NCBI GenBank assembly: GCA_013215505.1
Contig: JABSQZ010000002.1
Coordinates: 1 to 64,000, forward strand
Direction of reading: 5' to 3'
DNA: 64,000 nucleotides
From: Oceanospirillaceae bacterium
GTDB lineage: Bacteria; Pseudomonadota; Gammaproteobacteria; Pseudomonadales; Balneatricaceae
The position numbers and the translations under genes were made by a program. Positions 22,776 through 48,604 of this stretch are shown one piece after another. The notes below the pieces were generated by a model that worked only from the letters and a program-made list of their open reading frames with translations, did no database searches and was not told where the DNA came from. Position 1 is the first letter of the stretch. Each line of letters begins with the position of its first letter.

Positions 22776-22879
22776 TACGAATACCTTAAGGTCAGGATTA
22801 TTGTTTTTTATTTTGGCAACATCGGCACTAGATGATGCCTTTAGTAGAAAAAAGCCACAAACAATATTAAAGTATGGCT

Positions 22880-22902
22880 TCAGATAACATTTTGTTATCT
22901 GA
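22880..22902. promoter_or_regulatory. Perfect 10-bp inverted repeat, probable LysR operator
   Basis: TCAGATAACA and TGTTATCTGA flank a TTT centre, in the gap between the DgcA-like gene and its divergent LysR gene, directly before the LysR ribosome-binding site (GGAGAG). It contains the LysR-type T-N11-A core (T-AACATTTTGTT-A). Position fits autoregulation and control of the divergent enzyme gene. Confidence 0.7.
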
Positions 22903-22913
22903 AAGGAGAGGGT

Positions 22914-24988: not shown

Positions 24989-25072
24989 ACAATATCTCCA
25001 ATTGACTATAGTTATTTTTATATATCCGAATACTGCATTGTTGAACACAACCGTTAATGCCTGATCCGGGGG

Positions 25073-25882: not shown

Positions 25883-26820
25883 TAGCTGTTCTCCCGGCGA
25901 GTTTGTGAGCGGGCATAGTAAGTCAATACCACTAATACCATCGACAGCAATATCATGGATATTGCAGCGCCAAAGGGCCAGTTCCCGGCATTGCCTTTAA
26001 ACTGTTCTTCAATCAGTGAGCCGATCATGAAATTCTTGGCGCCTCCCAGTAAATCCGGGGCCAAAAACGCCCCCAGGCTGGGCACAAAGACTAAAATGCA
26101 TCCGGCGATAATGCCGGGTTTCACTGCGGGCAGCACAATCTTAGCTAAGATTGTCCAGCGCCCGGCGTATAGATCCGCAGCGGCCTCGGAGAGGGCGAAG
26201 TTGTAGCGCTCGACACTGGCGTATATCGGCAGCACCATAAAAGGCAGATATGAATAAAACAGCCCCAGTTGCACTGCCAGGTTGGTGTTGATGATCGAAA
26301 GAGGTTCGCTGATGGCGCCCAGTGTTAGTAGCCAGTCGTTGACTGGTCCGTTATCGCGGATTAGAAATTTGAGCGATACTGTGCGAATCAGTAAGTTAAC
26401 CCAATACGGGATAGTGATTAAGAACAACCAGATGTGTTTGCTGTTACCGGTGCGTGTGGCAATGTACCAGGCGGTGGGGAAACCTATCAGGAAACAAAAA
26501 GTGGTCGCCAGTCCCGCCTGCCAAAATGAACGCCAAAAGATATTGATATAGGTCCATTCAATTTTTATCGGCTCATCACCAAACAAGCCCCGATCAATGA
26601 AAAATTGATCGTAGGCGGCTAAGCTAAACTCCCATATAACTCCGCCGCGAAACTCTTTGGTCAAAAAAGAGTAGACCAACATCATCAACACCGGCATCAC
26701 TAAAAAAAGGCCTATGACTAACCAGGAGGGCATTAGCAGCCAGTCGCGTATGTTACCAACTAAACTGCTGTGGTTGCTGCTTTCAGCAGTCGTGCTGTTG
26801 GGTGCTATAACAGTGGCCAT
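25882..26820 (-). CDS. potB: Polyamine-type ABC transporter permease, PotB/PotH-like
   Basis: Inner-membrane permease of 312 residues, six transmembrane segments after a short cytoplasmic N-terminus. Family features: [24 protein letters not shown], a coupling loop at [30 protein letters not shown], and the closing hydrophobic helix. It overlaps both neighbours by the last or first base of TAATG, so the permeases and the ATPase are translated as a coupled set. Confidence 0.85.
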
Positions 26821-27953
26821 TAGTGTTCTAACAAGTGCGCAGCACCCGCCTCCAGTTTCAGGCCTAAGACATCCCCAATATTAGGGATTGCGACCAAATT
26901 AGAGTTCTGCATCCGCACTTTGATGAGTTCATCTCCGGGCAGTTTGACCACTATTTGCACATCCGTTCCCAGATAGATACGCTGACTGACTTGGCCGCGT
27001 AAATCCCCCTGTTGGGCACTGCAAAAGGAGATGCGTTCCGGGCGGATAGAGATGACTCCAGTGTCACCGGTATGCACTTTATTAAAAGAGCACTGCAGTG
27101 AAGTACCGTCAGCTATGCGGCATTGGGCGTAGTCGCCAATGGCAGATTTAACATCGACACTCAGGAAATTTGTTTCACCGATAAAATTGGCAACAAATTT
27201 ATTGCTCGGTGCCTCGTAGATTTCACTAGCGCTGCCGACTTGCTGTACTTGCCCCTCTGACATAACCACTATCCGATCGGACATTACTAATGCCTCCTCC
27301 TGATCATGGGTGACAAAGATAAAGGTAATGCCTGTGTCCTGTTGTATTTGTTTTAACTCAGTGCGCATTGATTGGCGCAGCTTTAGATCCAATGCCGATA
27401 GTGGCTCATCCAGTAGCAGTACCTGAGGCGCGGGAGCCAGTGCGCGTGCCAGTGCCACCCGTTGCTGTTGGCCGCCGGAGAGTTGCAGCGGGTAGCGCTC
27501 GGCAAAACTGTTCAATTGAACTAACTCCAACATTTCAGCGGCGCGGCGATTGCACTCACTGTCATTTTTGCCGAGCATTTGCAGACCAAACTTGATGTTC
27601 TGTCGTACGGTCAGATGTGGGAACAGTGCATAGTTTTGAAACACCGTATTCACTGGTCTTCGGTTGGGTGGCAAGTTGGCTATCTGCTTGCCATAGAGTA
27701 GTATCTCTCCTGTGGAAATCTGTTCAAAACCGGCAATCATTTTCAAAAGAGTGGTTTTTCCACAGCCGGATGGGCCGAGTAAGGTGAAAAATTCACTGTC
27801 TTTGATTTCCAGAGAAATATTTTTTATCGCACAGAAGTGATCATAGTTTTTTACTACATCACATATGGCTATTGCGATATCGTCGTGACTATTACTGTTA
27901 TGCAAACCAATGCCCTCATATTTATTTTTTTTGGGTTGTTTAACGCCCTGCAA
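26820..27953 (-). CDS. potA: Polyamine-type ABC transporter ATP-binding protein, PotA/PotG-like
   Basis: Cytoplasmic ATPase of 377 residues. Walker A is GPSGCGKTT (about 58-66), the signature LSGGQQQR, Walker B VLLLDEPLSALD, and the His switch TFIFVTHDQEEALVM. Residues 280-377 form the TOBE-type regulatory domain (VISIRPERISF). The first 23 residues are polar and not part of the fold, so a start further in is possible but no better ribosome site is visible. First gene of the transporter operon; a perfect 13-bp hairpin lies about 93 bp upstream. Confidence 0.88.
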   Translation of the reverse strand: MQGVKQPKKNKYEGIGLHNSNSHDDIAIAICDVVKNYDHFCAIKNISLEIKDSEFFTLLGPSGCGKTTLLKMIAGFEQISTGEILLYGKQIANLPPNRRPVNTVFQNYALFPHLTVRQNIKFGLQMLGKNDSECNRRAAEMLELVQLNSFAERYPLQLSGGQQQRVALARALAPAPQVLLLDEPLSALDLKLRQSMRTELKQIQQDTGITFIFVTHDQEEALVMSDRIVVMSEGQVQQVGSASEIYEAPSNKFVANFIGETNFLSVDVKSAIGDYAQCRIADGTSLQCSFNKVHTGDTGVISIRPERISFCSAQQGDLRGQVSQRIYLGTDVQIVVKLPGDELIKVRMQNSNLVAIPNIGDVLGLKLEAGAAHLLEH

Positions 27954-28204: not shown

Positions 28205-29500
28205 TTAGAAATTCAACAAATATCGATCCAACTCCACTTGGGTCACTTGTGCGTTAACAAATTCGATTTCCCGCTCCGCCTGCTTAATAATGATAGCCAG
28301 CCGGTCTTCACCGTAGACACGACGCATAAAGTCAGACTTTTTAGCCAGTGCCACTGCCTCATTTAAGCTTAGCGGCAGTGGTTGTGCCGGGTTGTCCTCA
28401 TAGGCATTACCACTAGTCACAGGTCCAGGCTCCAGCCCTTGTTCTATACCATCTAGCCCCGCTGCTATGTCAGTGGCCAGTAAGTAGTATGGGTTGCAAT
28501 CTGCTGAGGCATCGCGCTTTTCAATGCGCACAGCAGAGTCCTTACCTTCGATAACCCGCAGGCCAACAGTGCGGTTATCGAAACCCCAGCTGGCGTTGAT
28601 TGGACAGAATGAATAGGGCTGTCGGCGGCGGTAGGCGTTGGGCGTCATAGAACCTGATAGTGACATCTCCGCCATGCGCTGTTGCAGACCCGCCATAAAG
28701 GAGATGCCGGTGCTGTTTAACTTGCCGTTGTCGGCAAACTGATTAACACCATCGCGCCACAGTGAATAGTGCGTGTGGAAACCACTGCCAGCCTCTTTGA
28801 TGAAAGGCTTGGCCATAAAAGTCGCCAGATAACCGTAGTTGCCAGCCACTTCTTTAACCATCGCACGAAATAACATGCAGCGGTCCGCGGCCAACAGAGC
28901 TTCATCGTAGCGAATGTTAATTTCAACCTGGCCGGCTGCATACTCTGGGTTGGATTGTTCAATGGGAATGTCCAGGGCGCTTAAGTGCTCGCGAATGGGT
29001 CCCAGTACATGCTCCATTTCTGCGGAGCGGTTAATACCATAAACCTGGTTGTTACCAAAGGTCGGTTGTTTCGTCTCTGGGTCGAGCAGATAAAATTCCA
29101 GCTCTGTGCCCACTTGAATTTCAAAACCCATCTGACTGGCGCGATCTAATTGTGCGATCAGTGCGTTGCGCGGGTCTATGGGAACCGGCTGGTGGTCCAG
29201 GCCCTCGGCCCGACCGATACAAATCGCTACACCGGGCTCCCAGGGGGAGGCGATTGGCACGTGGGAGGGAAACATGTGCACATCAACATAGCCATTATCA
29301 AAGCTGCAGTAGGGGGTGTCCCAGATGTCACTGGTCATATCCATGGCGAAGATAGCAGCTATGATTGCATTGCCCTCTTCGCAAGTGCGCTGCCATTGAG
29401 TGGCGGGAATGCGTTTTCCACGCATAAATCCATTAATATCGCCTACACCTAATACTATGGTGTGGGTGCCTTCTGGTAGGGAATAGTTAGTAAATGCCAC
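28205..29500 (-). CDS. Glutamine synthetase-family protein, probable gamma-glutamylamide synthetase (PuuA/IpuC-like)
   Basis: ATP-dependent ligase of 431 residues that likely joins glutamate to an amine instead of ammonia. The GS catalytic features are present: VGTELEFYLLD (Glu pair for metal), GQVEINIRYDEALLAAD, GSGFHTHYSLW (His of the n2 site) and the C-terminal RRQPYSFCPINASWGFDNRTVGLRV plus RIEKRDASADCNPYYLLA, where NRT/R replaces the NPTVNSYKR pattern of true GlnA. Length (~430-450) fits PuuA-like enzymes. Located between a polyamine-type transporter and a GntR gene, supporting an amine substrate. Expected product: gamma-glutamyl-amine. Confidence 0.85.
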   Translation of the reverse strand: MAFTNYSLPEGTHTIVLGVGDINGFMRGKRIPATQWQRTCEEGNAIIAAIFAMDMTSDIWDTPYCSFDNGYVDVHMFPSHVPIASPWEPGVAICIGRAEGLDHQPVPIDPRNALIAQLDRASQMGFEIQVGTELEFYLLDPETKQPTFGNNQVYGINRSAEMEHVLGPIREHLSALDIPIEQSNPEYAAGQVEINIRYDEALLAADRCMLFRAMVKEVAGNYGYLATFMAKPFIKEAGSGFHTHYSLWRDGVNQFADNGKLNSTGISFMAGLQQRMAEMSLSGSMTPNAYRRRQPYSFCPINASWGFDNRTVGLRVIEGKDSAVRIEKRDASADCNPYYLLATDIAAGLDGIEQGLEPGPVTSGNAYEDNPAQPLPLSLNEAVALAKKSDFMRRVYGEDRLAIIIKQAEREIEFVNAQVTQVELDRYLLNF

Positions 29501-29677: not shown

Positions 29678-30376
29678 ATGTCCATCAACTTTGTTGCAGA
29701 GAACACTATGCCCGTCTTAAAAAAGATAGCCGCACCTAGAATTAGGCTCGCCGATGAAGTCTATACGCAAATACTTGAAGCGATTCAGCAGGGCTATATA
29801 GATCCCGATAAAAAGTTAATACAGGAAAAACTGGCGGCTGAATTAGAGATAAGCCGAACTCCGGTCAGGGAGGCGCTGCTCAGGCTGGAGCAAGAGGGAA
29901 TACTGGAAGTTGCCGGGCGCGGAGGCTTTAAGATTCGCAAAATAGGTGATGATGAAGTGCGGGAGATTTACGATACTCGCGCAGCCATCGAAGGACATGC
30001 TATTTGCCTGCTTACTGAACGCGGCAATGTTAAGTTGTTCGACCAGATATCGGCCGTCATTACCTTGGAGGAAACCAGAGATTTAAGCACAGTCTATGAT
30101 TATTATGATGCCAATCGTAACATCCACAGAGCTTTTGTTGAGCGCACCAATAATCGCTATTTGCTAGAAATGTTTGATCAACTCTGGAACCGAGGCTTCT
30201 CCAACTATTTGTTCACGACCATTGAGTCATCTGAGCTGGAAAAATCCCTCGGCAACCATCAGGCGCTCTGTGAAGTGATGCGCGCAGGAGATCCTATGGA
30301 GGCTGCGTTGGCCATGCGTGCGCACATTAATGATGGTCTGTCACTACAGCTGGATTCTCTGTCGAGAACCCAGTGA
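29678..30376 (+). CDS. GntR-family regulator, FCD subfamily
   Basis: Transcriptional regulator of 232 residues. The winged helix spans about 20-85, with the recognition part KLAAELEISRTPVREALLRLEQEGIL; the C-terminal FCD domain has the metal-binding His/Asp pattern (YDANRNIHRAFVE, LGNHQALCEVM, MRAHI). Two starts are possible: 29678, or the second Met at 29708, which has a modest GAGAA site and gives the usual N-terminus (PVLKKIAAPRIRLADEVY). Divergent from the GS-like gene. Its likely target site is duplicated upstream of the P450 operon. Convergent with the alcohol dehydrogenase gene. Confidence 0.85.
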   Translation: MSINFVAENTMPVLKKIAAPRIRLADEVYTQILEAIQQGYIDPDKKLIQEKLAAELEISRTPVREALLRLEQEGILEVAGRGGFKIRKIGDDEVREIYDTRAAIEGHAICLLTERGNVKLFDQISAVITLEETRDLSTVYDYYDANRNIHRAFVERTNNRYLLEMFDQLWNRGFSNYLFTTIESSELEKSLGNHQALCEVMRAGDPMEAALAMRAHINDGLSLQLDSLSRTQ

Positions 30377-30422: not shown

Positions 30423-31514
30423 TTACAGTGAGAAATCGACGATAGTACGGATCCCCTCACCGCGTTTCATCATTTCGAAACCCTGATTTATCTCTGGCAG
30501 TGGGATTCTGGCGCTGAGCATGTCGTCTAAATTCAGGCGGCCATCCAGGTAAAATTTCACCAGCCGCTGCATGTCGGTGCGAAACTGATTGGAGCCCATG
30601 TCGGAACCTAGTACCTTTCGCTGGGCGATGAATTGCTGGAAGGGCAGCGAAATCTCAGCGCCCTCGCGCATCAGCCCGATCAGTACTAAAGTGCCGTTTT
30701 TACGCAACATCATAAACGCCTGTCTGGCCAGTTGTTGATCGCCAACTGCTTCAAATGCATAGTCCACTCCCCTGTTTTCGGTGATAGCCATGACTTCAGT
30801 GCTGGCATCTACGCTCTTGGAGTTGATAGTATGAGTCGCGCCGAACGCAGCAGCCATTTGCAGTCTCTGCACATTGATGTCTATGGCGATGATATCGAGT
30901 GCCCCCGCCAGCCGTGCGCCTTGAATAGCGCTTAATCCCACAGCCCCACAACCAAACACCAGCACGCTGGAGCCAAGCGTCACTTTTGCAGTATGCATGA
31001 CGGCGCCTACTCCAGTAGTCACGGCGCAGCCGATCAGGGCTGCTCTGTCTAAAGGCATTGCCGGATCAATCTTGGCCAGTGCGTGTTCGTGCACTAACAT
31101 GTGATCGGCAAAGCCGGATAAGTTCATAAACTGCGTTAATGGCTGACCGTCCAGGCTTAATCTCGGCGGTTGATCCGGATCGCGATTAATAGCGTCCTGA
31201 TCTTCACAGATGGACGGGTGGCCCGACAGGCACATATGACAGCAGCCGCAAAAAGCCGACAGGCAACCAATCACGTGGTCGCCCGGCTTTAGGTAGCTGA
31301 CCCCCGCACCTACCACGCGAACGATGCCGGCTGACTCGTGGCCTAGCACTGCCGGGGCTAGCAGTGGTAAATGACCCTGCATAAAATGCAGGTCGGTATG
31401 GCATAAACCGGTGGCATGTACTTCTACCAAAACCTCGCTGTGAGCCGGGTCGGCTAATTGGATTTGTTGTATCTGTAGGGGTTGGTCCGGTCCTGTATAG
31501 ATTGCGGCACGCAT
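30423..31514 (-). CDS. Zinc-dependent alcohol dehydrogenase (MDR superfamily)
   Basis: NAD(P)-dependent oxidation of an alcohol, 363 residues. Start chosen at ATG 31514 after AAGGAG; the longer frame (31562) would run into the upstream hydrolase gene. Catalytic zinc ligands: Cys in TGLCHTDLHF and His-Glu in GHESAGIV; structural zinc: four cysteines in CGCCHMCLSGHPSIC. The Rossmann motif is VFGCGAVGLSAIQGA. The similar length and domain order fit class III-like or aryl-alcohol dehydrogenases; substrate unknown. Cotranscribed with the hydrolase 13 bp upstream. Confidence 0.87.
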   Translation of the reverse strand: MRAAIYTGPDQPLQIQQIQLADPAHSEVLVEVHATGLCHTDLHFMQGHLPLLAPAVLGHESAGIVRVVGAGVSYLKPGDHVIGCLSAFCGCCHMCLSGHPSICEDQDAINRDPDQPPRLSLDGQPLTQFMNLSGFADHMLVHEHALAKIDPAMPLDRAALIGCAVTTGVGAVMHTAKVTLGSSVLVFGCGAVGLSAIQGARLAGALDIIAIDINVQRLQMAAAFGATHTINSKSVDASTEVMAITENRGVDYAFEAVGDQQLARQAFMMLRKNGTLVLIGLMREGAEISLPFQQFIAQRKVLGSDMGSNQFRTDMQRLVKFYLDGRLNLDDMLSARIPLPEINQGFEMMKRGEGIRTIVDFSL

Positions 31515-31527
31515 AGCAAGCTGCTCC

Positions 31528-32319
31528 TTAAAGGTGTTTAGATAAATGTGATTGCAGGGCACGATTGACTGCCCCCGGGTTTTCTAGATTGGAAACGTGG
31601 CCAGCGTTGGCGATAATTTGCAGGGTGGCATCGGCTATCTGCCTGCATAAGTATGCGGCGTATTCAATCGGGGTATCGAGATCATCGGCGCCGACTAAAA
31701 CCAAAGTCCGAGCCCTGATTTTAGGCAGCTGGGTGAGTGCGTTATGATTGCCGATTAAATGAGTACACAACTCAAGCCCCGCACGACTGGCGCGACACAT
31801 AGATGCAATGCAAGTGCGTATTAATTGCTCGTTGCACTGGGGGCCGACAATGGCACGAATCATGCCATCGCTGAAATCAGCGATACTTTGTCCATCGGCC
31901 AGAGCCTGCAGGATCGGTTTGATAAAATCAGCGGCCAGAACATCGCCAGAGAGCCCGAATTTAGGGGATGTATCTAAAAGGGCTAAACTTTTCACTCGCT
32001 GGGGATATTGGGCACTGAAGTGTTGCAAAATCATCCCCCCTACCGATAAACCGACAAAATGGGCGCTGCTCAGCTTAAGTTCAAAATGGACAAAATGCTC
32101 TAGCATTTCTACCAGCGCCTGCATGTTATCAGCACAGGGGGGGGAGTTGCCAAATCCGGGCATATCCCAGGCTATACAGCGGTAGCTGTTGGCGAAATAG
32201 GCAAACTGCGGTTGCCAGGCGGTGGCCGAACCCGCCATGGCGTGCAAAAAAATCACAGGCTCTCCAGTGCCTTGTTCGCACCAACTTATCTGACTCGTAT
32301 CGAAATGTTTTATCTGCAT
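31528..32319 (-). CDS. Alpha/beta-fold hydrolase (enol-lactonase/PcaD-like)
   Basis: Serine hydrolase-type protein of 263 residues. The oxyanion region is EPVIFLHAMAGSATAWQ, the nucleophile elbow HFVGLSVGGMILQHF (Ser at about 96), and the catalytic His is in IIANAGHVSNLENP near residue 240; the acid is probably Asp in VLVGADDLDTP. 3-Oxoadipate enol-lactonase-like in motif spacing, but no catechol pathway genes are nearby. Upstream partner of the alcohol dehydrogenase and divergent from the P450 gene across a perfect palindrome. Confidence 0.82.
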   Translation of the reverse strand: MQIKHFDTSQISWCEQGTGEPVIFLHAMAGSATAWQPQFAYFANSYRCIAWDMPGFGNSPPCADNMQALVEMLEHFVHFELKLSSAHFVGLSVGGMILQHFSAQYPQRVKSLALLDTSPKFGLSGDVLAADFIKPILQALADGQSIADFSDGMIRAIVGPQCNEQLIRTCIASMCRASRAGLELCTHLIGNHNALTQLPKIRARTLVLVGADDLDTPIEYAAYLCRQIADATLQIIANAGHVSNLENPGAVNRALQSHLSKHL

Positions 32320-32395: not shown

Positions 32396-32502
32396 TTCAC
32401 AAATAAATCTAGCAATATACAAACACTTATTAACGGATTGTAGTAAAGACTAAAGAAATGCCTGAGCGTTGATAATTGATATACAAAATAAGGAGAAGAG
32501 CA

Positions 32503-33747
32503 TTGCCTGATCGTCAGATTTTTACAGCCGACCTGAATGACGCCGGACTGTTTGATGCGGGAATCCCGCAAGATGTTTTTAGCGGAATGCGCGCAACTCG
32601 AGGTTTGGTATGGACCCCAATAGGGGCAGCCGGGGATGGGTTTTGGAGTGTCGGCAGGTTTGCAGATATAGTCGCTGTTTCCCGCGACCCCGAGACTTTT
32701 AGTTCTGCGGCGGGCCATATTCAAATCTATTCTATAGATGACGACGCGCTGCAGGCCCGCGCTTCGATGATCGATATGGACCCCCCGGATCACAGCAGAT
32801 TGCGGCGTTTAGTGAATCCGGGATTTATTCCAAAAAACATTCGCGATTATGTGCCTATTGTCCGCGATCGTGTGAGCCTGCTGTTAGATGACATTATTGA
32901 GCAAGGAGGCGCTGACTGGGTTACGGCCCTGGCTAAGCCGATTCCTATAGGTATCATTTGTGACATGTTGGGGGTACCGGAGGAAGATCACGACTATATG
33001 ATTGAGCTGACCGACTATCTAGTGGCAGGCACTTCCGCCAGGCCCCTGGATCCAACAGCTTACGGAAATACTACGCCGTTGCGGTTGCTGCCATTTAATT
33101 CTCCCGCTGCTCATGGACTGACAGAATACGCCCGTGCGCTGGGGGAAAAAAGACGGGCCGATCCCCGTGATGATATGGTTTCCAAACTAGTGACAGCAGA
33201 AATTGATGGTCAGCGGATGTCCGATGAAGAGTACTGTAACTTCTTTCGCCTGTTAATCTTTGCCGGCAATGAGACCACCCGCTCGGCGATGAGTAATCTG
33301 GTGATACAAATGGCCCGTTTCCCGGAACAATTTGCCCGCCTAAAGCAACAGCCGGAGCTGATTCCAAGTGCCGTTGAAGAGGTCGTGCGCTTTGCCTCGC
33401 CAATTTTATATTTCCGCCGCACAGCCACCCGAGACACTGTGTTGAGCGGTACACAAATTAAAAAAGGCGAAAAAGTAGTGATGTGGTATTGCAGTGGCAA
33501 CTTTGATGAGCAGCAGTTTGAGAATCCGCAGCAGTTTAGGGTTGATAGACCTAAAACTGTCCACGTCGGCTATGGCGGAGGTGGGGTGCACACTTGTTTG
33601 GGATCTGGACTGGCGAGACTCGAGCTGAAAGTATTGTTGGAGGAAATACTGAAACGGGATATGCAATTTACCATCACCGAAACCCCGGAATATGTGCACT
33701 CCAACTTTGTAAATGGCATTGAACATTTACATGTGAAACTGTCATAA
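32503..33747 (+). CDS. Cytochrome P450
   Basis: Soluble bacterial P450 monooxygenase, 414 residues. Start TTG 32503 with AGGAG 7 nt upstream; the frame is open to 32476 but lacks a site there. Hallmarks: I-helix FAGNETTRSAMS, K-helix ExxR in EEVVRFASPILYFRR, and the heme loop YGGGGVHTCLGSGLARLELK with the Cys ligand. The KKGEKVVMWYCSGNFDEQQF stretch recalls CYP125/CYP124/linalool-hydroxylase type P450s. The electron partner is presumably the reductase encoded next. Substrate unknown: the operon context suggests an amide or amine derivative, the family resemblance a terpenoid or lipid. Confidence 0.87.
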   Translation: MPDRQIFTADLNDAGLFDAGIPQDVFSGMRATRGLVWTPIGAAGDGFWSVGRFADIVAVSRDPETFSSAAGHIQIYSIDDDALQARASMIDMDPPDHSRLRRLVNPGFIPKNIRDYVPIVRDRVSLLLDDIIEQGGADWVTALAKPIPIGIICDMLGVPEEDHDYMIELTDYLVAGTSARPLDPTAYGNTTPLRLLPFNSPAAHGLTEYARALGEKRRADPRDDMVSKLVTAEIDGQRMSDEEYCNFFRLLIFAGNETTRSAMSNLVIQMARFPEQFARLKQQPELIPSAVEEVVRFASPILYFRRTATRDTVLSGTQIKKGEKVVMWYCSGNFDEQQFENPQQFRVDRPKTVHVGYGGGGVHTCLGSGLARLELKVLLEEILKRDMQFTITETPEYVHSNFVNGIEHLHVKLS

Positions 33748-33764
33748 CTATGGAGGCAGAAATT

Positions 33765-34877
33765 ATGCAAAACCACAATAAAGCAGCCCTGATCGACTTT
33801 TTAGTGACTAAAATTGTGTGCGAGTCAGAGAACATCCGCTCCTTCTATTTGCGGCCAGTGCGCGGCGAATGTCCTGAATATACGCCGGGTGAGTACTTAG
33901 TGTTTGAGTTGACAGACTCAAATGGAAAAAAAATTAAGCGCGAGTACAGCATTTCCAATGGGTCAAAACAGCAATTACGCATCACCATTAAACGTGAAGA
34001 CCCACCATTGCAAAGTCCGGATTTGCCAGCGGGAGTAATGTCTGAATATTTTCATCAGCAGCTGCAAGTTGGTGACTCACTGATAGCTTACGGCCCTGTC
34101 GGTAAGTTTAAGTTACAGTCCTCCGCTAGACCTGTGGTGCTGTTGGGGGGAGGCGTGGGGCAAACGCCACTGCTGGCGATGGCGCACGCGCTGGCCGAGC
34201 AGGGCACAAGAGCAACTACCTTTATCCACGCCTGTGAAAACGGTGCCGTACATGCATTGGGGGCAGAAATAACTGCGCTCAAGCAATCTTTTAAACTGCT
34301 GCGCAGCTATGTCTGCTACGCCAATCCGCGCAGCTGCGATAGACTCGGCAGCGATTATCAAAGTAGTGGTTTTATCAGCAAAGAGATACTGCAATCATTG
34401 TTAGTACTGGATGATTACGAGTTTTACCTCTGCGGTCCGGGGCCTTTCATGCAGGCCATGTACAATCACTTGCAGCAGTTAGGAGTGGATGACGGCCGGA
34501 TTTTCTACGAGTTCTTTGGCCCGGCGACGCTGCTGAAGAAAGCTGCGGCGACAGTCGAAGCGGTCAAGCTGCCGGTACCAACTACAGCTGCTGATGATAG
34601 TCAGCCAGGGACAGACAGCGCTTCCCCGCTAATCACTTTTAGCAGGTCGGGCTTTGCGGTGCCCTGGGATCCAGAGTTTGAAAATTTATTAGAGTTTGCC
34701 GAAGAGCAAGATTTAATGCCCGATTTCAGTTGCCGGGCGGGTACTTGTGATACTTGCAAAACTAAAATTTTGCAGGGGCAAGTGAGTTATCCGGATGAAC
34801 CTATGGCGTTACCTGAAGAAGGCTATGCGCTGATCTGCTGCGCCATCCCCAAAGGTAGTATCAGTATTGATTTATAA
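33765..34877 (+). CDS. FAD-ferredoxin fusion reductase, predicted P450 electron-transfer partner
   Basis: Three-part reductase of about 370 residues: ferredoxin-NADP+ reductase-like FAD domain (YTPGEYLVFEL... KREYSISNGS), NAD(P) domain (VVLLGGGVGQTPLLAMA, YLCGPGPFMQAM), then a C-terminal plant-type 2Fe-2S domain with Cys ligands in CRAGTCDTC and a last Cys in ALICCAI. ATG 33765 is preferred over 33750 because it follows GGAGG with 8-nt spacing. The order resembles phthalate-dioxygenase-reductase-like proteins reversed, or hydroxylating oxygenase reductases. Immediately downstream of the P450, 17 bp apart, so it probably reduces it directly. Confidence 0.85.
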   Translation: MQNHNKAALIDFLVTKIVCESENIRSFYLRPVRGECPEYTPGEYLVFELTDSNGKKIKREYSISNGSKQQLRITIKREDPPLQSPDLPAGVMSEYFHQQLQVGDSLIAYGPVGKFKLQSSARPVVLLGGGVGQTPLLAMAHALAEQGTRATTFIHACENGAVHALGAEITALKQSFKLLRSYVCYANPRSCDRLGSDYQSSGFISKEILQSLLVLDDYEFYLCGPGPFMQAMYNHLQQLGVDDGRIFYEFFGPATLLKKAAATVEAVKLPVPTTAADDSQPGTDSASPLITFSRSGFAVPWDPEFENLLEFAEEQDLMPDFSCRAGTCDTCKTKILQGQVSYPDEPMALPEEGYALICCAIPKGSISIDL

Positions 34878-34895
34878 TAGTTATGGAGAGCGTTG

Positions 34896-35582
34896 ATGAA
34901 AATTGGCATTTTACAAACTGGCCATGTAGTGGAACCGCTGCGCAGCAAGCACGGAAATTTCAATACGATGTTCGAAAAACTGCTGGCTGCTGAGGATTTC
35001 GAATTTGTCAGTTATCCGGTGATAGACGGTCATTTTCCAGCATCTGCAGAAACAGCGGATGGCTGGTTGATCACAGGTTCCGCCAGCAGCAGTTATGAAC
35101 AGTTAGACTGGATAGTTGAACTGGAAGACTTTATTCGCAGTGTTTATGCGCGGAGTATTCCCATCGTCGGTATCTGTTTTGGCCATCAAATTTTAGCTCA
35201 GGCTCTGGGGGGCAAAGTAGAGAAATTTACCGGGGGATGGTCGATCGGCAATCAACAATATCAGCTGCACAATAGCGCAGAAAACCCGCGTATCGTCGCC
35301 TGGCACCAAGATCAAGTGACACAATTGCCCGAGGATGCCCAGTGTATAGGCAGTTCAGATTTTTGTGAAAATGCGTTTCTGCTGTACGGGAAAAAAGCGT
35401 ATTCAGTGCAAGCGCACCCAGAGTTCAGTGTGGAGTTTGCTAAAGACCTGATGGCGTTGCGCAGGGAGAACCTGCCCGCTGAGTTAGTTCAAGCGGCAGC
35501 AGCAAACTTTGACGCAGATCTTGATACCGCCGCAATGGCGGAAACTATAGCGCGGTTTTTTAAAACCGGGAGGCGGGAATAG
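34896..35582 (+). CDS. Class I glutamine amidotransferase-like hydrolase, candidate gamma-glutamyl-amide hydrolase
   Basis: GATase-1 fold enzyme of 228 residues from ATG 34896 (GGAG 8 nt upstream). The nucleophile Cys is in VGICFGHQILAQALGG (about residue 90) and the His-Glu pair in VQAHPEFS near residue 170. The rest of the protein resembles stand-alone GATases often misnamed GMP synthase. In the isopropylamine pathway IpuF, a GATase-like enzyme, cleaves a gamma-glutamyl amino alcohol, and in polyamine catabolism PuuD plays a similar part. Third gene of the P450 operon and 18 bp after the reductase, so a deglutamylation role is the best hypothesis. Not demonstrated by sequence alone. Confidence 0.8.
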   Translation: MKIGILQTGHVVEPLRSKHGNFNTMFEKLLAAEDFEFVSYPVIDGHFPASAETADGWLITGSASSSYEQLDWIVELEDFIRSVYARSIPIVGICFGHQILAQALGGKVEKFTGGWSIGNQQYQLHNSAENPRIVAWHQDQVTQLPEDAQCIGSSDFCENAFLLYGKKAYSVQAHPEFSVEFAKDLMALRRENLPAELVQAAAANFDADLDTAAMAETIARFFKTGRRE

Positions 35583-36810: not shown

Positions 36811-38121
36811 TCAAACCCTCCTGAACCACTCAGTCAATGCCGATTCTGGTTTAAGTAAGCAGCGCTCGGCAAGCAGGCCCTCAAGCATTTGCCGATCGGC
36901 AGATCTTCTGGCGGCTTCCAGCAAGGTCAAACTCAATATATCTCGCTGGGCGATGGAGCCACCGATTAAATGGGTCAGATGTCGGGTGCTGGTCAGTAAT
37001 TTTTTAGCGCGGCTAAAATCACCATCTGCAAATGCCATAATGGCTTTGAGAATAGGCAGGCCCGCCAGGCGGATGATCATAGATCGGGTACTATCACTCT
37101 CAGCCTGGAGCTCTAAAACCGCAATCAACAACTCTGCTTCGCTGCTGCGTCCAGTCATCACAAAAGACATCATCGCGTGCATGTCATTAAAGGGCATATA
37201 AGCTTGATCAATAAATTTGCAGTAGTTATCTGCCACGCTATGCCAGCGGTCGCCAACATCGCAACCCATTAGTGTCAACCGCCAGAGCAGAGCGACTGCA
37301 TCGTGCATATCCATTAGCTCCGAATTGACGTGCACTTTCAGGTGTTGATCGTACACCGCCAGAGCCTGGCCAAATTCACATTGCTCCAACAAAAATAAGG
37401 TTGAATGCCAGCGGTTGTGGATAGCTAAATAGTTGCCGCTAGCCCAATTGGCTTCAGTGTGCTGCATAAAGTCAACGCCCTGCTGAGTCTTTCCCTGCAT
37501 CTCATAGCAGTGCGCCAGTGCGTGAGTACCCCAAGTGTCTTGTGGGTTTAAACTTAAACATTGCTCTGCCATGGCCTCTGCCTGTGGGTAGTGACCAGAT
37601 TCTTCAAGTCCAAAGGCAAGCATGCCATACAGGAAAGAGCTGTCGCTATCGGTGCTTGACCAGTGTTTTAATACTCTGGCACTACGGTCGCGGTTGGAGC
37701 TGGCCTGGCCCAGCAAAAAATCGATCTGATGACCAAATTGCAGCGCGGTTAAGTCCCTAGGGTAATAATACAGTATATCGGCGTAGACTTGAGAGGCGCC
37801 GTACCAATTTCCGTTTAACCACAGTCCTATCGCCTTAATATGACCAAGTTCGCGGTCATTGGCGGCGGGGGATAACTGCTGCAGGATCTGGAATTTGTTG
37901 GCCAGTTTTTGTTGCTGGTTATGGTCGCTGGCAATTAAGTGCATACCGGCGCGAAAGCAGTGACCCATAATGAATTCTGGGGAGCGTTGCAGAACCTGGT
38001 TAATTTTATTGATTGGGTCCGGTCTATAGCCGAGTAAGTCTTGAGCAGCGCTGTAAAAATCGTCTACATCTCGCTGTTTGTGGTGCGATACAGCTGCGCC
38101 GAATCCATCGATTAATGCCAT
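36811..38121 (-). CDS. TTC38-like tetratricopeptide repeat protein
   Basis: Soluble helical-repeat protein of 436 residues. TPR-like helix pairs are evident from about residue 50 to 300 (for example FIMGHCFRAGMHLIAS, PRDLTALQFGHQIDFLLG, YPQAEAMAEQCLSLNPQDTW, THALAHCYEMQGK). The closest recognisable match is TTC38, a eukaryotic protein with bacterial homologues, whose role is unknown. It lies 145 bp downstream of the desulfinase gene on the same strand, and its function in that context is unclear. No signal peptide. Confidence 0.75.
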   Translation of the reverse strand: MALIDGFGAAVSHHKQRDVDDFYSAAQDLLGYRPDPINKINQVLQRSPEFIMGHCFRAGMHLIASDHNQQQKLANKFQILQQLSPAANDRELGHIKAIGLWLNGNWYGASQVYADILYYYPRDLTALQFGHQIDFLLGQASSNRDRSARVLKHWSSTDSDSSFLYGMLAFGLEESGHYPQAEAMAEQCLSLNPQDTWGTHALAHCYEMQGKTQQGVDFMQHTEANWASGNYLAIHNRWHSTLFLLEQCEFGQALAVYDQHLKVHVNSELMDMHDAVALLWRLTLMGCDVGDRWHSVADNYCKFIDQAYMPFNDMHAMMSFVMTGRSSEAELLIAVLELQAESDSTRSMIIRLAGLPILKAIMAFADGDFSRAKKLLTSTRHLTHLIGGSIAQRDILSLTLLEAARRSADRQMLEGLLAERCLLKPESALTEWFRRV

Positions 38122-38266: not shown

Positions 38267-39463
38267 TTATCTTTCTGCCTGCAGTTTAGTGTAGCCATCT
38301 CTGGTCTGGGGTATCTTCATCTTTAATACCGAACCAGCTACTTGGTTGCGTAACATCTGCGCGGTGCCTCCACCAATGGTGAACATTCGGGCATCTCGGA
38401 CCATGCGCTCCATTGGCAGTGAACGGCCGTAACCTACCGCCCCGTGCACTTGCAGAGCGCTGTTGGTCACTGCGATAGCGTTGTCGGCGGCGAAGATTTT
38501 TGCCTGAGCAGCTGCGTTCTTATCTGGGTAGCCGCTGCCACCACTGAGGGCGGCTTTGTAAATCAGCGCCTGGGAGGCGGCTAAGCCGGTAGCCATATCG
38601 GCAATCATCCACTGAATACCCTGGAATTCGGCGATCGGGCGGCCGAACTGCTCGCGGCTTTTGACAAAATCCAGTGCTCGTTCGTAAGCGCCCTGAGCAA
38701 TGCCGTGAGCAACAGTAGCGGCGCCCACTCGCTGTCCATTGTAGGCGCTCATCAGTGCGGCAAAACCGCGTTTGAATCCCTGAGGTAATTGGATTACTTG
38801 CCGCTGAGGTATGATCATGTCTTTAAATAGCAGTTGGGTTTCCGGGATGCCGCGCAAGCCCATAGCATACTCGCGTTTACCTACTATCAGGCCTTCTGTT
38901 TCACCGCGAATCGCGATAAAGCCGCCGATCCCCTGATCGACTCCATCTTCGATCACCCGGGCAAAAATCAAATGCAACTTAGAGACACCGCCACCGGTAA
39001 TCCAGTGTTTTTCACCGTTGATTATATAGTTGTCACCTTGTTTAACAGCCACAGTGGTCATTTCTGTGGCCGCGCTGCCGGCGTTTGGCTCGGTGATGCA
39101 AATAGCCGGTTTGTCACCTTTGAGCACTAGGGAGGCAGCCATTTTTTTTTGCTCATCGCTACCGTATCCCATGATGGCGCCGACACCACCCATGTTGGCT
39201 TCCACCACTATGCGAGCGGTGACTCCGCAATTGCGGGCCATCTGCTCTATTACCAGTACCGCATCAAAATATGAGAGCCCACGGCCACCGTATTCTCTGG
39301 GGATAGTCATGCCCATAAAGCCAGCTTCAGTGAGTCGCTCTACTGTGTCCCAAGGGTACTCCTCACTTTTATCTACCTCCGCAGCCCGAGATTTGACATG
39401 GCTGTCGGATAACTCTTTGGCTGCTTGCTGCAGCATGTTTTGCTCTTTAGTCAATTGGAACAC
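38267..39463 (-). CDS. acd: Acyl-CoA dehydrogenase-fold enzyme, probable 3-sulfinopropanoyl-CoA desulfinase
   Basis: Flavoenzyme of the acyl-CoA dehydrogenase fold, 398 residues. The usual catalytic Glu is missing at both known positions: the C-terminal site reads TIGGGTAQML (Gly instead of Glu), and the helix site reads AYNGQRVGAA with Gln244. Arg84 (VTARIVVE) is present. This Arg84/Gln pattern, plus stretches such as KPAICITEPNAGSAATEMTT and GFAALMSAYNGQRVG, matches 3-sulfinopropionyl-CoA desulfinase of Advenella/Variovorax as I recall it, which releases sulfite and gives propionyl-CoA. It follows a class III CoA-transferase gene (26 bp), the partner expected for making the CoA thioester. 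Confidence 0.82.
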   Translation of the reverse strand: MFQLTKEQNMLQQAAKELSDSHVKSRAAEVDKSEEYPWDTVERLTEAGFMGMTIPREYGGRGLSYFDAVLVIEQMARNCGVTARIVVEANMGGVGAIMGYGSDEQKKMAASLVLKGDKPAICITEPNAGSAATEMTTVAVKQGDNYIINGEKHWITGGGVSKLHLIFARVIEDGVDQGIGGFIAIRGETEGLIVGKREYAMGLRGIPETQLLFKDMIIPQRQVIQLPQGFKRGFAALMSAYNGQRVGAATVAHGIAQGAYERALDFVKSREQFGRPIAEFQGIQWMIADMATGLAASQALIYKAALSGGSGYPDKNAAAQAKIFAADNAIAVTNSALQVHGAVGYGRSLPMERMVRDARMFTIGGGTAQMLRNQVAGSVLKMKIPQTRDGYTKLQAER

Positions 39464-39489
39464 AGTTAACTCTCCTGATATTTTTAATT

Positions 39490-40704
39490 TTATTCGGATT
39501 GTAGTTGTTGCAGCTCAGCTAGAATCTCCTCAGTATCAGCTCCGCACTTAGGAGGAGGGCGCCGATAGCTGACCGGTGTAGCGGAAAACTTGATCGGGTT
39601 GCCGATCAGCTCTACAGAGCCGCTTTGAACATTCGGATCCGCCAGGCTGATTTTCATCTCCCGCGCCGCCACTTGCTCGGTGGCAAATACTTCAGGCAAA
39701 GTGTTGATAGGTCCACCTGGGATGGTCGATAGCTCCATCTGTGCCAGTAGCGCATCTTTGTGCTGCATCGCCAGCATCGGGGTTAATAACTCAATCAATT
39801 TTTCGCGGTTTTTCAGCCGCAGTGTATTAGTGCTAAACCTGGCATCCATCGCGAGTTCAGGAGTACCTAATAATTTGCAAAAACGTACAAATTGCCCGTC
39901 ATTACCGACGGCAACGATGACGTGCCCGTCTGCTACCTGGAAAACCTGGTAGGGCACTATATTGGGATGTTGATTACCGCGACGCTGTGGCTGCTCGCCT
40001 GAGAGTAGATAGTTAGTGCCCTCGTTGACCAGCCAGGCGGTTTGAACATCGACCAGTGCGATGTCTATGTGCTGTCCACCACCCCCGGATTTTTGATGGT
40101 AGAGCGCTGCCAGTATCGCCGAACTGGCGTACATGCCCGTCATCACATCACAGATGCCAACACCGACCTTCATTGGCTCGCCTTGCGGATCACCGGTCAA
40201 ACTCATGATACCGCCGAAGCCCTGTGCCAGTAGATCGTAACCTGCTCTGTGGGCATTCGGGCCAGTCTGGCCAAAGCCGGTGATAGAGCAGTAAACTAGC
40301 TGTGGAAAATCTTTGCACAGATCGGCGTAAGCCAGGCCATATTTCTTCAGCCCACCGACTTTGAAGTTCTCTATTAAAACATCACAAGTTACCAGTAGCT
40401 CGCGTATTTGTCTGGCCCCCCGCGGGTCGGCGATATCGATAGCAATAGAGCGCTTATTGCGATTGGCTGACAGGTAATAGGCGCTCTCTGCGCTGGGCTG
40501 GCCCTGTGCGTCAGTGACAAAAGGAGGTCCCCAGGCGCGAGTGTCATCACCGGCCCCGGGCTTTTCGACTTTGATTACATCGGCACCCATATCACCGAGT
40601 AGCTGAGTGCAGGTGGGCCCTGCCAAAATGCGGCTTAAATCTAATATTCGCAGCCCTGCCAAGGGGCCTGTAATGTTGATGCCTGATTTGTTGTTATTAG
40701 TCAC
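39490..40704 (-). CDS. CaiB/BaiF class III CoA-transferase, candidate 3-sulfinopropionate CoA-transferase
   Basis: Family III CoA-transferase of 404 residues. Recognised by PLAGLRILDLSRILAGPTCTQLLGDMGADVIKVEKPGAGDDTR at the start and by the catalytic Asp in the ICDVMTGMYASSAILAALYHQ region (about residue 175). Family members move CoA between carboxylates with a covalent Asp intermediate. In Variovorax TBEA6 and Advenella a class III transferase (Act) activates 3-sulfinopropionate next to the desulfinase; the 26-bp spacing to the desulfinase gene here makes that the most likely role. Substrate is inferred from context, not motif. Confidence 0.8.
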   Translation of the reverse strand: MTNNNKSGINITGPLAGLRILDLSRILAGPTCTQLLGDMGADVIKVEKPGAGDDTRAWGPPFVTDAQGQPSAESAYYLSANRNKRSIAIDIADPRGARQIRELLVTCDVLIENFKVGGLKKYGLAYADLCKDFPQLVYCSITGFGQTGPNAHRAGYDLLAQGFGGIMSLTGDPQGEPMKVGVGICDVMTGMYASSAILAALYHQKSGGGGQHIDIALVDVQTAWLVNEGTNYLLSGEQPQRRGNQHPNIVPYQVFQVADGHVIVAVGNDGQFVRFCKLLGTPELAMDARFSTNTLRLKNREKLIELLTPMLAMQHKDALLAQMELSTIPGGPINTLPEVFATEQVAAREMKISLADPNVQSGSVELIGNPIKFSATPVSYRRPPPKCGADTEEILAELQQLQSE

Positions 40705-40918: not shown

Positions 40919-43243
40919 TCAGATTTTAAACTGCTTAACCAGTGATCTGAGTTCAAAGGCCAGGGCGGCCAGTTCGAGTGAGGCTTCCGCTGTTCTACCG
41001 GAGCCAGAGGCGTTTTCGTTGGTGATTTCAGAAATGGCATTGATGTTTTTGTCTATCTGATTAGTAATGACTTGCTGTTGCTCTACGTCGGTAGTGATTT
41101 GGTTATTCATTTGTGCGATAGAGGCAACAGAATCGGATACTTCGGAAAAAGCTTGCTCGGCGTTGCCCGCCTGAGTCACCACTTCAGTGGCCAGTGCCTG
41201 GCTTTGGACCATAGCGTTAATGGCCTGATCAGAGTTGATCTTAAGTTTATCAATGACGTCATTAATCTCACTGGTGGAACGCTGAGTGCGTCCGGCCAGT
41301 GCTCTGACTTCATCGGCAACTACGGCAAAACCACGGCCTTGATCTCCGGCTCTGGCAGCCTCAATGGAGGCATTTAAGGCCAGCAGGTTAGTTTGATCGG
41401 CTATACCTTTGATGACATCTAAGACACTAGTAATCTCATTGCTGTGAGTCTCAAAATCGCTGATAACTTTTGATGCACTATCTATCTGTTGGGCGAGACG
41501 CTCAACCAGCACTATGCTCTCCTCCATAGTGCGGTGACCTTGGCTGCTCTTTTGATCGGCTTGATGGATAGCGGCGACTGTGTCTTGTAAATTGCTGGAG
41601 ATAGATTCCAGTGAGGCGGTCATCTGATGCATAGAGACCACCACATCGTTGGTCTGATTCTGCTGAGTATCCAACAGCTGGTTACTCTGCTTGGTGATTG
41701 CGGAGGTCTGCTCTGCAGATTCAGAAATCTTCACAGCATTTTCAGCAACTTGATTAATACCCTGGTGAAACTTTTCGAGCATAGAATTGAGTGCCGCTGA
41801 GGCGCTGCCAATTTCATCATTACCGCTGTGAGTTAAACGGTAAGTCAGGTCCGAGTCTTTTTCTATGGCTCTGATATTGCGCGATAGTTGGATAATAGGT
41901 TGGCTGATACTTCTGGCAAACAGGCCGCCACAGGCGGTGCCGAGCAGGATAAAGATGGCGCCGATCACTAAAGCGTAAAACTGAATTTTATCACTGAGAG
42001 CAAATGCTGCGGCAAAAGCTTCGGATTCATCAACCTCGGCCAAAATGGCCCAGTGCAGACCCGGGAAATTAATTTTATCATAGGCGGATAACACTGGAAT
42101 ATTGCGGTAGTCGTCGACTATCTGGATACCGGATTGGCCTTTTAAGGCTAAGTTGGCGGTGGCGCTGTTGACCGGTTGCAAACTGATGGCGGTGTTTTTG
42201 GAGTCAATAGCTTTAATGATACTGCGATCCATGCCGGCGTCAGTGATCGCCTTTAAATAGTCTCTTTTGCCCTCGATTAAGAAGCGGCTCTGAGACCTTA
42301 AAGTATTATCATCACCGACCAGATAAGTTTCACCGGATTCTCCTAAACCCGCCTCCTTCCATTGTTGCCCGTGAGTCATAATTTCATTGAGATGACCTAT
42401 GGGCATTTGAAAAATCAAAATCCCAATAATTTTTCCGTTTTCAGTAATAGGAGACGAGATAAAAGCGGCCGGATCTTGATAGGAGGGGGGATAGCTATCG
42501 AAGTCGTCGATGCTAGTATAATTCGCGTCAGCTTGATTGTTGGCGGCGTTATAGACCCTGGCAATCCCAGTATTGGCGAAAGTCCCTCTTTTTAATGAAG
42601 TGGCGTAATCCAATTCTTTAAACACTGAGTAAACAATGTTGCCGGATTTAGCATCCACCAGAAAAATATCATAGTATTCAAATTGTTCCAGGTAATAGCG
42701 GATAGAGGGGTGATACAGCTGATGGACTTTGTCGTAATCACTGTTATCGCCCAGGGCGTCTAACAAGTGTTTTTCCCCAAGCGGGTTGGGGTTGGTTTGA
42801 ATCAGCTTGTGCTGCAGCAGCGCGGCAGTGTCAGAAAGCTTGGCCAGCCAGTCCTTTATATTGGCGGAGCGATTATCATTGTGCTCTTTAAACACCCGAT
42901 TAAATTCTGCACTGTAGTATTGATGCAATTCTTTCCTGGCGTTGGCCGCTGTCACCGAACTCTGGCTCGGATACGCATTATAAGCGGTTGAAAACTCTTG
43001 CATTGCATCGATGATCATCCGATTGTTAGAAAATGTTTTTACTTGTTTATCAATGCTATGCAGATAATCTTCGATTCGCCCTTTTGTGATATTCCTGACT
43101 GAAAGCAGCTGAGCTTCACTGGATTTTTCCAGTGCTAACAGTGAATCTGTGGAGGAGTTATAGCCGAGGATAGCTGAAGAAATAATGATGGGAATAGCCA
43201 CTAACAATGCAGAGCCAATAAGGATTTTAGTTCGCAATCTCAT
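40919..43243 (-). CDS. Methyl-accepting chemotaxis protein with large periplasmic sensor domain
   Basis: Transmembrane chemoreceptor of about 774 residues. Start ATG 43243 follows GGGAG; the frame upstream (TTG 43258) has no site. TM1 is at 6-25, then a periplasmic domain of about 390 residues (Cache-like size and layout), TM2 near [20 protein letters not shown], a HAMP domain ([27 protein letters not shown]), and a cytoplasmic signalling hairpin with the conserved tip [36 protein letters not shown]. No pentapeptide tether for CheR is visible. The ligand is unknown; chemotaxis genes are not in the window. Confidence 0.87.
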
Positions 43244-43489
43244 CTTTAGCACTCCCAATATTAACTGGTCACTCTACAAATACATGAAATGGATACATGA
43301 ATTCAGAAATATATTAACTAAAAAATGGCCAATAAAACATCAGATATTGGAGTAGTTTTTATTTTCTGTTAACAAAAGTTTGGCTGAAAATATTTTACTG
43401 GCCAGCTTTGCAATATTAGTGTTAGGTTAGTTATAATTATTCTATTTTTTGTTGTATTAGTGTCTTGTTTGATAACTTTAAGGTGCGCT

Positions 43490-44371
43490 ATGAATCTCAG
43501 ATTTTTAAGAACCGTTATCGCCATTTCCGAGTACCCTACTTTTGTCGCTGCCGGTGAGGCATTGGGCTTGTCTCACTCGGCAGTCAGTGTGCATATCAAA
43601 TCGCTGGAGGACGAGCTGGGGATGTTGATAGTCGATCGCCGCAAGCGGCCACCGATATTAACTGACCGTGGCATAGCACTGATTGAGAACGCCAGGCGAA
43701 TTTTTGAAATCATTGATAATATTAAATCTCTGGGGGATGAAGAGGCCTTAATAGGTTCAATGACCATGGGAGTGGTACCTTCCGCCTTAGTGAATTTAGT
43801 CCCCCCAGCTCTGGCGGCCCTGAGATTGAGCCATCCAAAACTGCAGATAAAGATTAAAGCAGAGCTGTCGGCAGAACTGGCGCAACAAGTGCGCAATAGA
43901 GATATTGATGTTGCTATTTTAACGGAGCCGGAATCTCTGATTGAGGGGCTTCGCAGCCAGTATATTTGTGACGAACCTTTTAATATCATTGCCCCTGCCG
44001 ATGTGCAGGCGAGTAGCAGTGAAGAGTTACTGAGTCAACATCCGTTCATCTGGTTTAACCGCCGTACTTGGGCGGGACAGCTGATCGAGAGACAATTGAA
44101 TAAGAGTAAAATTCACGTGCACTCAGTGATGGAAGTCAATTCTCTGGAGGCGATTGAATCTTTGGTACGCAACGGCATAGGGATCTCGATAGTGCCGCAG
44201 CGAGTCTGTGCTCCGGCTTATGATGCGTCGATAAAAGTAGTGCCTTTTGGTGATCCTCAAACCGCCAGGCGCTTAGTATTAGTAGATAGAATCAACAACC
44301 CCAGAGCAAGGCTAGCCAACGCGCTACTCCGGGAACTGCTACTGCTGTCGGGAGCTGCAGGCGCTGAGTAA
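43490..44371 (+). CDS. LysR-family transcriptional regulator
   Basis: LTTR of 293 residues from ATG 43490, which follows AAGGTG; ten extra codons upstream lack a site. Helix-turn-helix: NLRFLRTVIAISEYPTFVAAGEALGLSHSAVSVHIKSLEDELG. The effector domain has GSMTMGVVPSALVNLVPPA and GIGISIVPQRV. It ends 6 bp from the convergent oxidoreductase gene. It could regulate the divergent chemoreceptor gene or a distant locus; the sequence does not say. Confidence 0.85.
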   Translation: MNLRFLRTVIAISEYPTFVAAGEALGLSHSAVSVHIKSLEDELGMLIVDRRKRPPILTDRGIALIENARRIFEIIDNIKSLGDEEALIGSMTMGVVPSALVNLVPPALAALRLSHPKLQIKIKAELSAELAQQVRNRDIDVAILTEPESLIEGLRSQYICDEPFNIIAPADVQASSSEELLSQHPFIWFNRRTWAGQLIERQLNKSKIHVHSVMEVNSLEAIESLVRNGIGISIVPQRVCAPAYDASIKVVPFGDPQTARRLVLVDRINNPRARLANALLRELLLLSGAAGAE

Positions 44372-48513: not shown

Positions 48514-48604
48514 AGTCGTAAGTAGGAAGTAGGAAGTAGGAAGTAGGAAGTCGTAAGTAGGAAGTAGGAAGTCGTAAGTAGGAAGTAGCGAGTAGTGAGT
48601 TAGG
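48514..48604. repeat. Heptanucleotide array of AAGTAGG and AAGTCGT units
   Basis: Thirteen contiguous 7-bp units starting 6 bp after the Lrp gene stop: AGTCGTA, four AGTAGGA, AGTCGTA, two AGTAGGA, AGTCGTA, AGTAGGA and three degenerate units. The AGTCGTA unit recurs with a 3- to 5-unit higher order. Same family as the arrays at 18575, 36127 and 51246. Confidence 0.93.

Follow-up and report, generated by a model that had tools for sequence, protein, structure and literature searches.

The stretch analysed here, referred to as the window, comprises 64,000 nucleotides of contig JABSQZ010000002.1 (assembly GCA_013215505.1) from an Oceanospirillaceae bacterium. It contains two adjacent genes, act and acd, whose products are predicted to act on 3-sulfinopropionate:

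39490 to 40704, reverse strand: act, class III CoA-transferase (PF02515, 419 bits; NF052585, 505.7 bits)
38267 to 39463, reverse strand: acd, 3-sulfinopropionyl-CoA desulfinase of the acyl-CoA dehydrogenase fold (NF042439; solved chain 5af7; clade and residues R84/Q244/G365)

The act open reading frame (404 amino acids) lies 26 bp upstream of acd (398 amino acids), as described in the original prediction, which a model had made from the sequence. By its sequence, the 38267–39463 reading frame is a 3-sulfinopropionyl-CoA desulfinase of known kind.

Acd scored 659.5 bits against the NCBIfam equivalog for 3-sulfinopropanoyl-CoA desulfinase (NF042439), above the cut-off of 600. The closest solved chain was 5af7 from Advenella (1e-158; runner-up 7e-79), to which Acd is 62.8% identical over 393 positions, compared with 24.0–36.4% for 27 ordinary acyl-CoA dehydrogenases (23 sub-cut-off NF042439 matches with loci and four proteins from the window genome). 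These were set against 90 desulfinases: the window protein, 5af7, eight further loci from genome searches and 80 scan loci, which here and throughout are the best 80 of one longer scan for desulfinase relatives. The 80 were picked by similarity to a desulfinase alignment, and the patterns GDK[PL]AICI and KHWITGGG used to find them contain none of the three residues compared. Arg84, Gln244 and Gly365 (the Gly of TIGGGTAQML) align with Arg84, Gln246 and Gly366 of 5af7, which bears out the predicted Arg84, Gln244 and Gly in place of Glu. All 90 desulfinases carry this triad and none of the 27 ordinary enzymes does; the latter have Glu at position 244 in three cases and at 365 in 24, and Arg84 in none. 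Arg84 and Gln246 are functionally important in Advenella Acd. In a quick maximum-likelihood tree, an analysis proposed with the original prediction, all 90 desulfinases including 5af7 formed one clade (Shimodaira–Hasegawa-like approximate likelihood-ratio test, SH-aLRT, 99) apart from the 27 ordinary enzymes. PMC8360864 gives the YEG motif as AGG in the desulfinase and states that this enzyme eliminates sulfite. Acd has the fold and the Pfam domains of acyl-CoA dehydrogenases and might on that account be an ordinary member with Glu at another position, but both Glu positions of Acd are without Glu, the protein sits in a separate, well-supported clade and it passes the equivalog cut-off. We rejected this reading on the residues and the tree, and consider it extremely improbable.

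The desulfinases form a discrete family. Of 299 genomes surveyed in the phylum, 237 had an NF042439 match at E ≤ 0.001; the seven matches above the cut-off scored 608.6–671.4 bits, whereas the best below it reached 318.7 bits. Among 57 relatives, three were above the cut-off (the window genome and two congeners) and the next scored 305.8 bits.

Together, Act and Acd very probably complete the breakdown of 3-sulfinopropionate in two final steps. Act would first load 3-sulfinopropionate with CoA taken from a donor, by analogy succinyl-CoA, and Acd, which is without the catalytic Glu, would then strip the sulfino group to give propionyl-CoA and sulfite. Gene content, family membership, residues and conserved linkage were observed directly for act–acd, and the reactions are taken from characterised relatives. 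The predicted combination of a desulfinase with an activating class III CoA-transferase, and with it the likely conversion of 3-sulfinopropionate to propionyl-CoA and sulfite, is supported to that extent. According to PMC6370202 and PMC5373536, 3-mercaptopropionate is turned into 3-sulfinopropionate by Mdo, activation is by SucCD or Act, and Acd then releases propionyl-CoA and sulfite. Two points count against our assignment: activation in Advenella is ascribed to SucCD rather than to the adjoining transferase (PMC5373536); and Act, at 505.7 bits, is under the cut-off of 750 set for the equivalog closest to it, succinate-glutarate CoA-transferase, which makes 3-sulfinopropionate its putative substrate. 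Act could instead serve another dicarboxylate, glutarate or succinate, with Acd desulfinating a different sulfinyl-CoA. This would suit the top NCBIfam match of Act and the presence of succinate-hydroxymethylglutarate CoA-transferase among its PDB matches. However, 26 of the 80 loci have a relative of Act no more than 2.5 kb from acd (one of the 26 being a distant relative), and Acd shares its triad and its clade with the characterised 3-sulfinopropionyl-CoA desulfinase, so that we regard another substrate pair as improbable.

The original prediction named 3-mercaptopropionate, dithiodipropionate or dimethylsulfoniopropionate as a possible source of 3-sulfinopropionate. That part is unsupported: no Mdo gene was found nearby, the candidates in the genome are weak, and no search for dimethylsulfoniopropionate genes was made. 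A search with Bordetella Mdo (E ≤ 1) gave no hit in any reading frame of the window and, of the 80 related loci (58 with at least 2.5 kb on either side of acd), matched only the locus of the query itself, leaving 79 without a match; the linkage of mdo to acd, a trait of the classical Mdo-Act-Acd pathway, was not found in the window. In Bordetella trematum the gene adjoining acd resembles cysteine dioxygenase (CDO) and encodes a genuine relative of Mdo (206 bits to 4wvz), which scored only 25.9 bits against PF05995 and 19.4 bits with a model made from the CDO of the host genus; the search near acd gave the same result with this model and with the Mdo query. The host genome, 98% complete, offers two Mdo candidates, neither convincing. 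One is its only CDO_I protein, closest to mammalian cysteine dioxygenases and with Arg and Cys at the Arg-type positions. The other is its sole Mdo-like cupin (G000:C19:86688-87047), 34% identical to Bordetella Mdo (E 2e-8). A thiol dioxygenase elsewhere in the genome could in principle make 3-sulfinopropionate from 3-mercaptopropionate and leave act–acd to finish, as PMC6370202 and PMC5373536 describe for Variovorax and Advenella. CDO_I occurs in all seven genus members, and a cupin similar to that on contig C19 is present in the acd-bearing congener G304. Yet CDO_I is found with or without acd, the C19 cupin reaches 26 bits against 3-mercaptopropionate dioxygenase where Bordetella Mdo reaches 206, and the Bordetella query matched nothing in the 79 related loci. 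We judge this source unlikely: with a mammalian-like CDO_I and a 26-bit cupin as the only finds and no Mdo nearby, the 3-mercaptopropionate route is possible but unsupported in the host.

Plasmids of Diaphorobacter and Paraburkholderia do carry acd together with a cysteine-dioxygenase gene, as in the classical arrangement. On pSYM of Paraburkholderia phenoliruptrix, a Mimosa isolate (NC_018696.1, 316688–333869), acdA and a CoA-transferase gene stand with cysteine-dioxygenase and MalY/PatB family genes. This cluster could feed 3-mercaptopropionate from plant S-alkylcysteine, e.g. S-carboxyethylcysteine, a putative source on which a literature search gave no useful result.

While the original prediction was right about the identity of the pair and unsupported on the source of its substrate, it was silent on the conserved island (28.2–44.4 kb of the window) in which the pair occupies one end and amine-type genes make up part of the remainder. 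The other genes of the island and its adjoining transporter are listed below, with identities to counterparts in the islands of Maritalea, Zongyanglinia and Mesorhizobium ('three islands'):

23948 to 27953, reverse strand: four-gene Pot-type ABC transporter adjoining the island (PotA/B/C-like matches, SBP_bac_8)
28205 to 29500, reverse strand: glutamine-synthetase-like ligase, candidate gamma-glutamyl-amide synthetase (TIGR03105, 215 bits, cut-off 470; 67–80% in three islands)
29678 to 30376, forward strand: GntR/FCD regulator (PF07729, PF00392; 55–74% in three islands)
30423 to 31562, reverse strand: Zn-dependent alcohol dehydrogenase, class III-like (TIGR02818, 323 bits, cut-off 544; 63–76% in three islands)
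31528 to 32319, reverse strand: alpha/beta hydrolase (PF00561; 47–58% in three islands)
32476 to 33747, forward strand: cytochrome P450 (PF00067; nearest solved chains CYP125 and CYP124; 69–72% in three islands)
33750 to 34877, forward strand: FAD/NAD/[2Fe-2S] reductase, candidate P450 redox partner (PF00970, PF00175, PF00111; 36–53% in three islands)
34893 to 35582, forward strand: class I glutamine amidotransferase-like protein, candidate de-gamma-glutamylase (NF004212, 172 bits, cut-off 309; 58–59% in Maritalea and Zongyanglinia)
36811 to 38121, reverse strand: TPR-repeat protein (weak Pfam TPR matches; 59–60% in three islands)
40919 to 43258, reverse strand: methyl-accepting chemotaxis protein, between LysR and act (PF00015, PF00672)
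43460 to 44371, forward strand: LysR, probable pathway regulator (PF03466/PF00126)

Eleven genes recur: those for the ligase, GntR, alcohol dehydrogenase, hydrolase, P450, reductase, amidotransferase, TPR protein, Acd, Act and LysR. All eleven are clustered in Maritalea (50–80% identity) and Zongyanglinia (53–81%), and ten are found in a different order on plasmid pML2037 of Mesorhizobium loti NZP2037 (36–75%; annotation and tblastn of the window genes), where tblastn placed acd (75%) and P450 (69.5%) about 7 kb apart. The window amidotransferase had no match in the pML2037 cluster, which has a gamma-glutamyl-4-aminobutyrate (gamma-glutamyl-GABA) hydrolase instead; an APC permease gene is also present, a putative sulfate exporter gene directly follows acd, and propionyl-CoA carboxylase, methylmalonyl-CoA mutase and biotin genes lie beyond two regulators. 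In Maritalea and Zongyanglinia, genes for a YeiH-type exporter, a GABA-transaminase-like protein (GabT) and an aldehyde dehydrogenase stand between TPR and the amidotransferase. The Maritalea transaminase passes the NCBIfam 4-aminobutyrate transaminase equivalog (728.6, cut-off 724); the exporter is under its NCBIfam cut-off (125.8 against 232.6) but passes PF03601. The exporter and propionyl-CoA genes fit both products of Acd, sulfite and propionyl-CoA. No full-set counterpart of the Pot-type transporter was found in the Maritalea, Zongyanglinia and Mesorhizobium loci, which have other transporter types; a function in amine uptake is possible, on weak indications.

The composition of the island suggests a new feeder route, with the source of 3-sulfinopropionate still undescribed. 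That the P450, ligase, amidotransferase, alcohol dehydrogenase and TPR genes share a pathway with act–acd, and make 3-sulfinopropionate from a sulfur-containing amine and not from 3-mercaptopropionate, is in our estimate an evenly balanced proposition. We infer the substrate and the order of the steps as follows. The ligase would gamma-glutamylate a sulfur-containing primary amine; the P450 and its reductase would oxidise the glutamylated amine, e.g. at an S-methyl group, freeing formaldehyde for the class III-like alcohol dehydrogenase, whose nearest solved chain is S-(hydroxymethyl)glutathione dehydrogenase; and the amidotransferase would remove the glutamyl group to leave 3-aminopropanesulfinate (homohypotaurine). 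GabT and aldehyde dehydrogenase would convert homohypotaurine to 3-sulfinopropionate (a sulfinate GABA shunt), which Act and Acd would split into propionyl-CoA and sulfite. The TPR protein may be a further enzyme or factor. GabT and aldehyde dehydrogenase genes are linked in two of the four islands, and they fit such a shunt because a commercial preparation of GABA-transaminase and succinic-semialdehyde dehydrogenase converts homohypotaurine to 3-sulfinopropionic acid in vitro (PMC11396700). The complete scheme, in which one mobile island would encode the whole catabolism of a sulfur-containing primary amine via homohypotaurine and the shunt, is put forward tentatively, as a possibility that we rate rather doubtful.

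Several observations speak against an amine route. GabT is not among the genes listed for the pML2037 cluster. None of the six other genus members (drafts, 87–98% complete), including the acd-bearing G301 and G304, gave a hit for the P450, and a P450 of at least 70% identity was present in only two of 50 acd-bearing genomes (50 of the 80 loci). Some P450 at E ≤ 1e-50 occurred in 11 of the 50, the best after those two being 38% identical. acd is thus independent of the P450; the desulfination pair is wider than the island, which is one of its versions. These distributions would also be expected if the P450/ligase/amidotransferase block and the act–acd block were separate pathways that are neighbours by chance, and in the window the two blocks are indeed split by a DUF1330 gene and a putative acetyltransferase gene (identified by eye), both on the reverse strand. 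Against this stands the clustering of the same eleven genes in Maritalea and Zongyanglinia and of ten, reordered, on the Mesorhizobium plasmid. That the genes keep together although their order has been shuffled favours a joint function, with one-piece transfer as an alternative, and we consider chance neighbourhood a realistic possibility, though one short of even. A literature search that covered few subscription journals returned no title on the desulfinase that also concerned a P450 or a ligase of the glutamine synthetase type; the terms sulfinopropion- and P450 co-occurred only in PMC4019311, a review of non-heme iron centres. The novelty of the island is not proven.

The nearest acd genes outside the genus are alphaproteobacterial: Zongyanglinia (81–82% identity), Maritalea (80%) and two Rhodobacteraceae bins (79% and 77%), which share a starred seven-row clade with the three genus members. 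By comparison, the scan gave 62–67% identity to the window gene for acd records that bear the names Gammaproteobacteria or Arenicellales. Within the genus acd is patchy, occurring in three of seven members (the window genome, G301 and G304), and an orthologue of LysR (88–90%) is present only in these three; the best match in the other four reached 118 bits. The alphaproteobacterial relatives, the patchiness and the tracking of acd by LysR point to horizontal transfer of the acd region. Base composition was rejected as a sign of transfer, since the G+C content of act–acd (52.8%, against 48.0% for the window) is not distinctive.

A LysR gene is present no more than 2.5 kb from acd in 32 of the 80 loci, and LysR probably regulates the act–acd genes of the window. 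The chemoreceptor gene between LysR and act occupies this position in the congener G304 too and had no match in the Maritalea, Zongyanglinia and Mesorhizobium islands. It might sense the pathway substrate, but relatives of 66–67% identity occur in other surroundings in two acd-less congeners, and its place in the pathway is weak for that reason.

Fourteen of the 80 loci have a relative of the TPR protein at most 2.2 kb from acd, and its presence changes at least eight times on the acd tree (the window and 58 loci with flanks of at least 2.5 kb on each side). In an unselected sample of 398 genomes, 52 had TPR relatives (E ≤ 1e-30) and six of these also had acd, with adjacency in the window genome alone; we accordingly rejected the TPR protein as a general partner of acd. 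Two of the seven genus members have it, and the acd-bearing G304 does not. Its neighbours on four other plasmids gave no hint of function. Many charged and aromatic residues are invariant in the family (R90, E91, H94, H200, H204, E207, W238, H239, R281, H315, Q392 and D394), and these may form an active or binding site and not mere scaffold. The protein may be TTC38/StaR-like.

In the 80 loci, the genes within 2.5 kb of acd include those for a thiamine diphosphate (ThDP) enzyme (33 loci), LysR (32), CoA-transferase (26), MsrB (15), TPR (14), YeiH (3) and GabT (2). The score thresholds for neighbours were our own choice, and contig ends hide some neighbours, 58 of the 80 loci having at least 2.5 kb on both sides. 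This variety suggests that different feeders into the desulfinase may exist. The ThDP enzyme resembles acetolactate synthase and the MsrB-type neighbour is a SelR-domain protein. In Variovorax, IlvX was more abundant on 3-sulfinopropionate, and deletion of ilvX had no effect on growth on thiodipropionate (PMC6370202). A plasmid of Ruegeria sp. SCSIO 43209 (NZ_CP065362.1) carries an annotated desulfinase (57% identity to the window protein) and a LysR gene in divergent orientation; neither a CoA-transferase nor a dioxygenase was among the genes listed for its 17 kb stretch. By record name, the best 80 loci, all with the triad and largely metagenome-assembled, are mostly from Alphaproteobacteria, and also from Gammaproteobacteria, Betaproteobacteria, Nitrospinota, Nitrospirota and Acidobacteriota. 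The desulfinase family therefore reaches well past the xenobiotic thioether degraders in which it was first described.

Upstream of the island are a sulfatase-family gene (18693–20660) and an Oxidored_FMN flavoprotein gene (20721–22943). A pattern scan found a short run of AGGAAGT-type repeats at 48524–48582. A scan for ribosome sites gave fewer matches than expected by chance and was not used.

The act–acd core is of a known kind, and it is the island context that is new and worth testing: a desulfinase beside amine-type, exporter-like and propionyl-CoA genes is a concrete, testable candidate route, and the island ties the TPR protein to sulfur catabolism. Catabolism through gamma-glutamylated amines is known from the putrescine Puu pathway and from AtdA1/AtdA2 in aniline degradation. 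These routes, which the ligase, amidotransferase and P450 of the island call to mind, use a glutamine synthetase family ligase and an amidotransferase-family hydrolase, as the island is proposed to do, but the island ligase and amidotransferase are below the curated cut-offs and we do not claim membership. The pML2037 cluster, an annotated record with no pathway claimed, shares ten of the eleven genes with the window and differs from it in gene order and in its APC permease, propionyl-CoA, biotin and gamma-glutamyl-GABA hydrolase genes. The Acd of Advenella mimigardefordensis DPN7 (PDB 5af7, 5ahs) has Arg84, Gln and Gly at the same three sites as the window protein. Its cluster comprises LysR, family III acyl-CoA transferase, acd, mdo and AhpD-type genes beside methylcitrate genes (PMC5373536), whereas the window has no detected mdo and carries P450, ligase and TPR genes. 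The cluster of Variovorax paradoxus TBEA6, unlike that of the window, includes mdo and the enoyl-CoA hydratases needed for thiodipropionate (PMC6370202). What the window has in common with it is act-acdA itself (VPARA_05450/05440), in which a class III CoA-transferase adjoins the desulfinase under consecutive locus tags, as in Advenella (MIM_c31380/31390).

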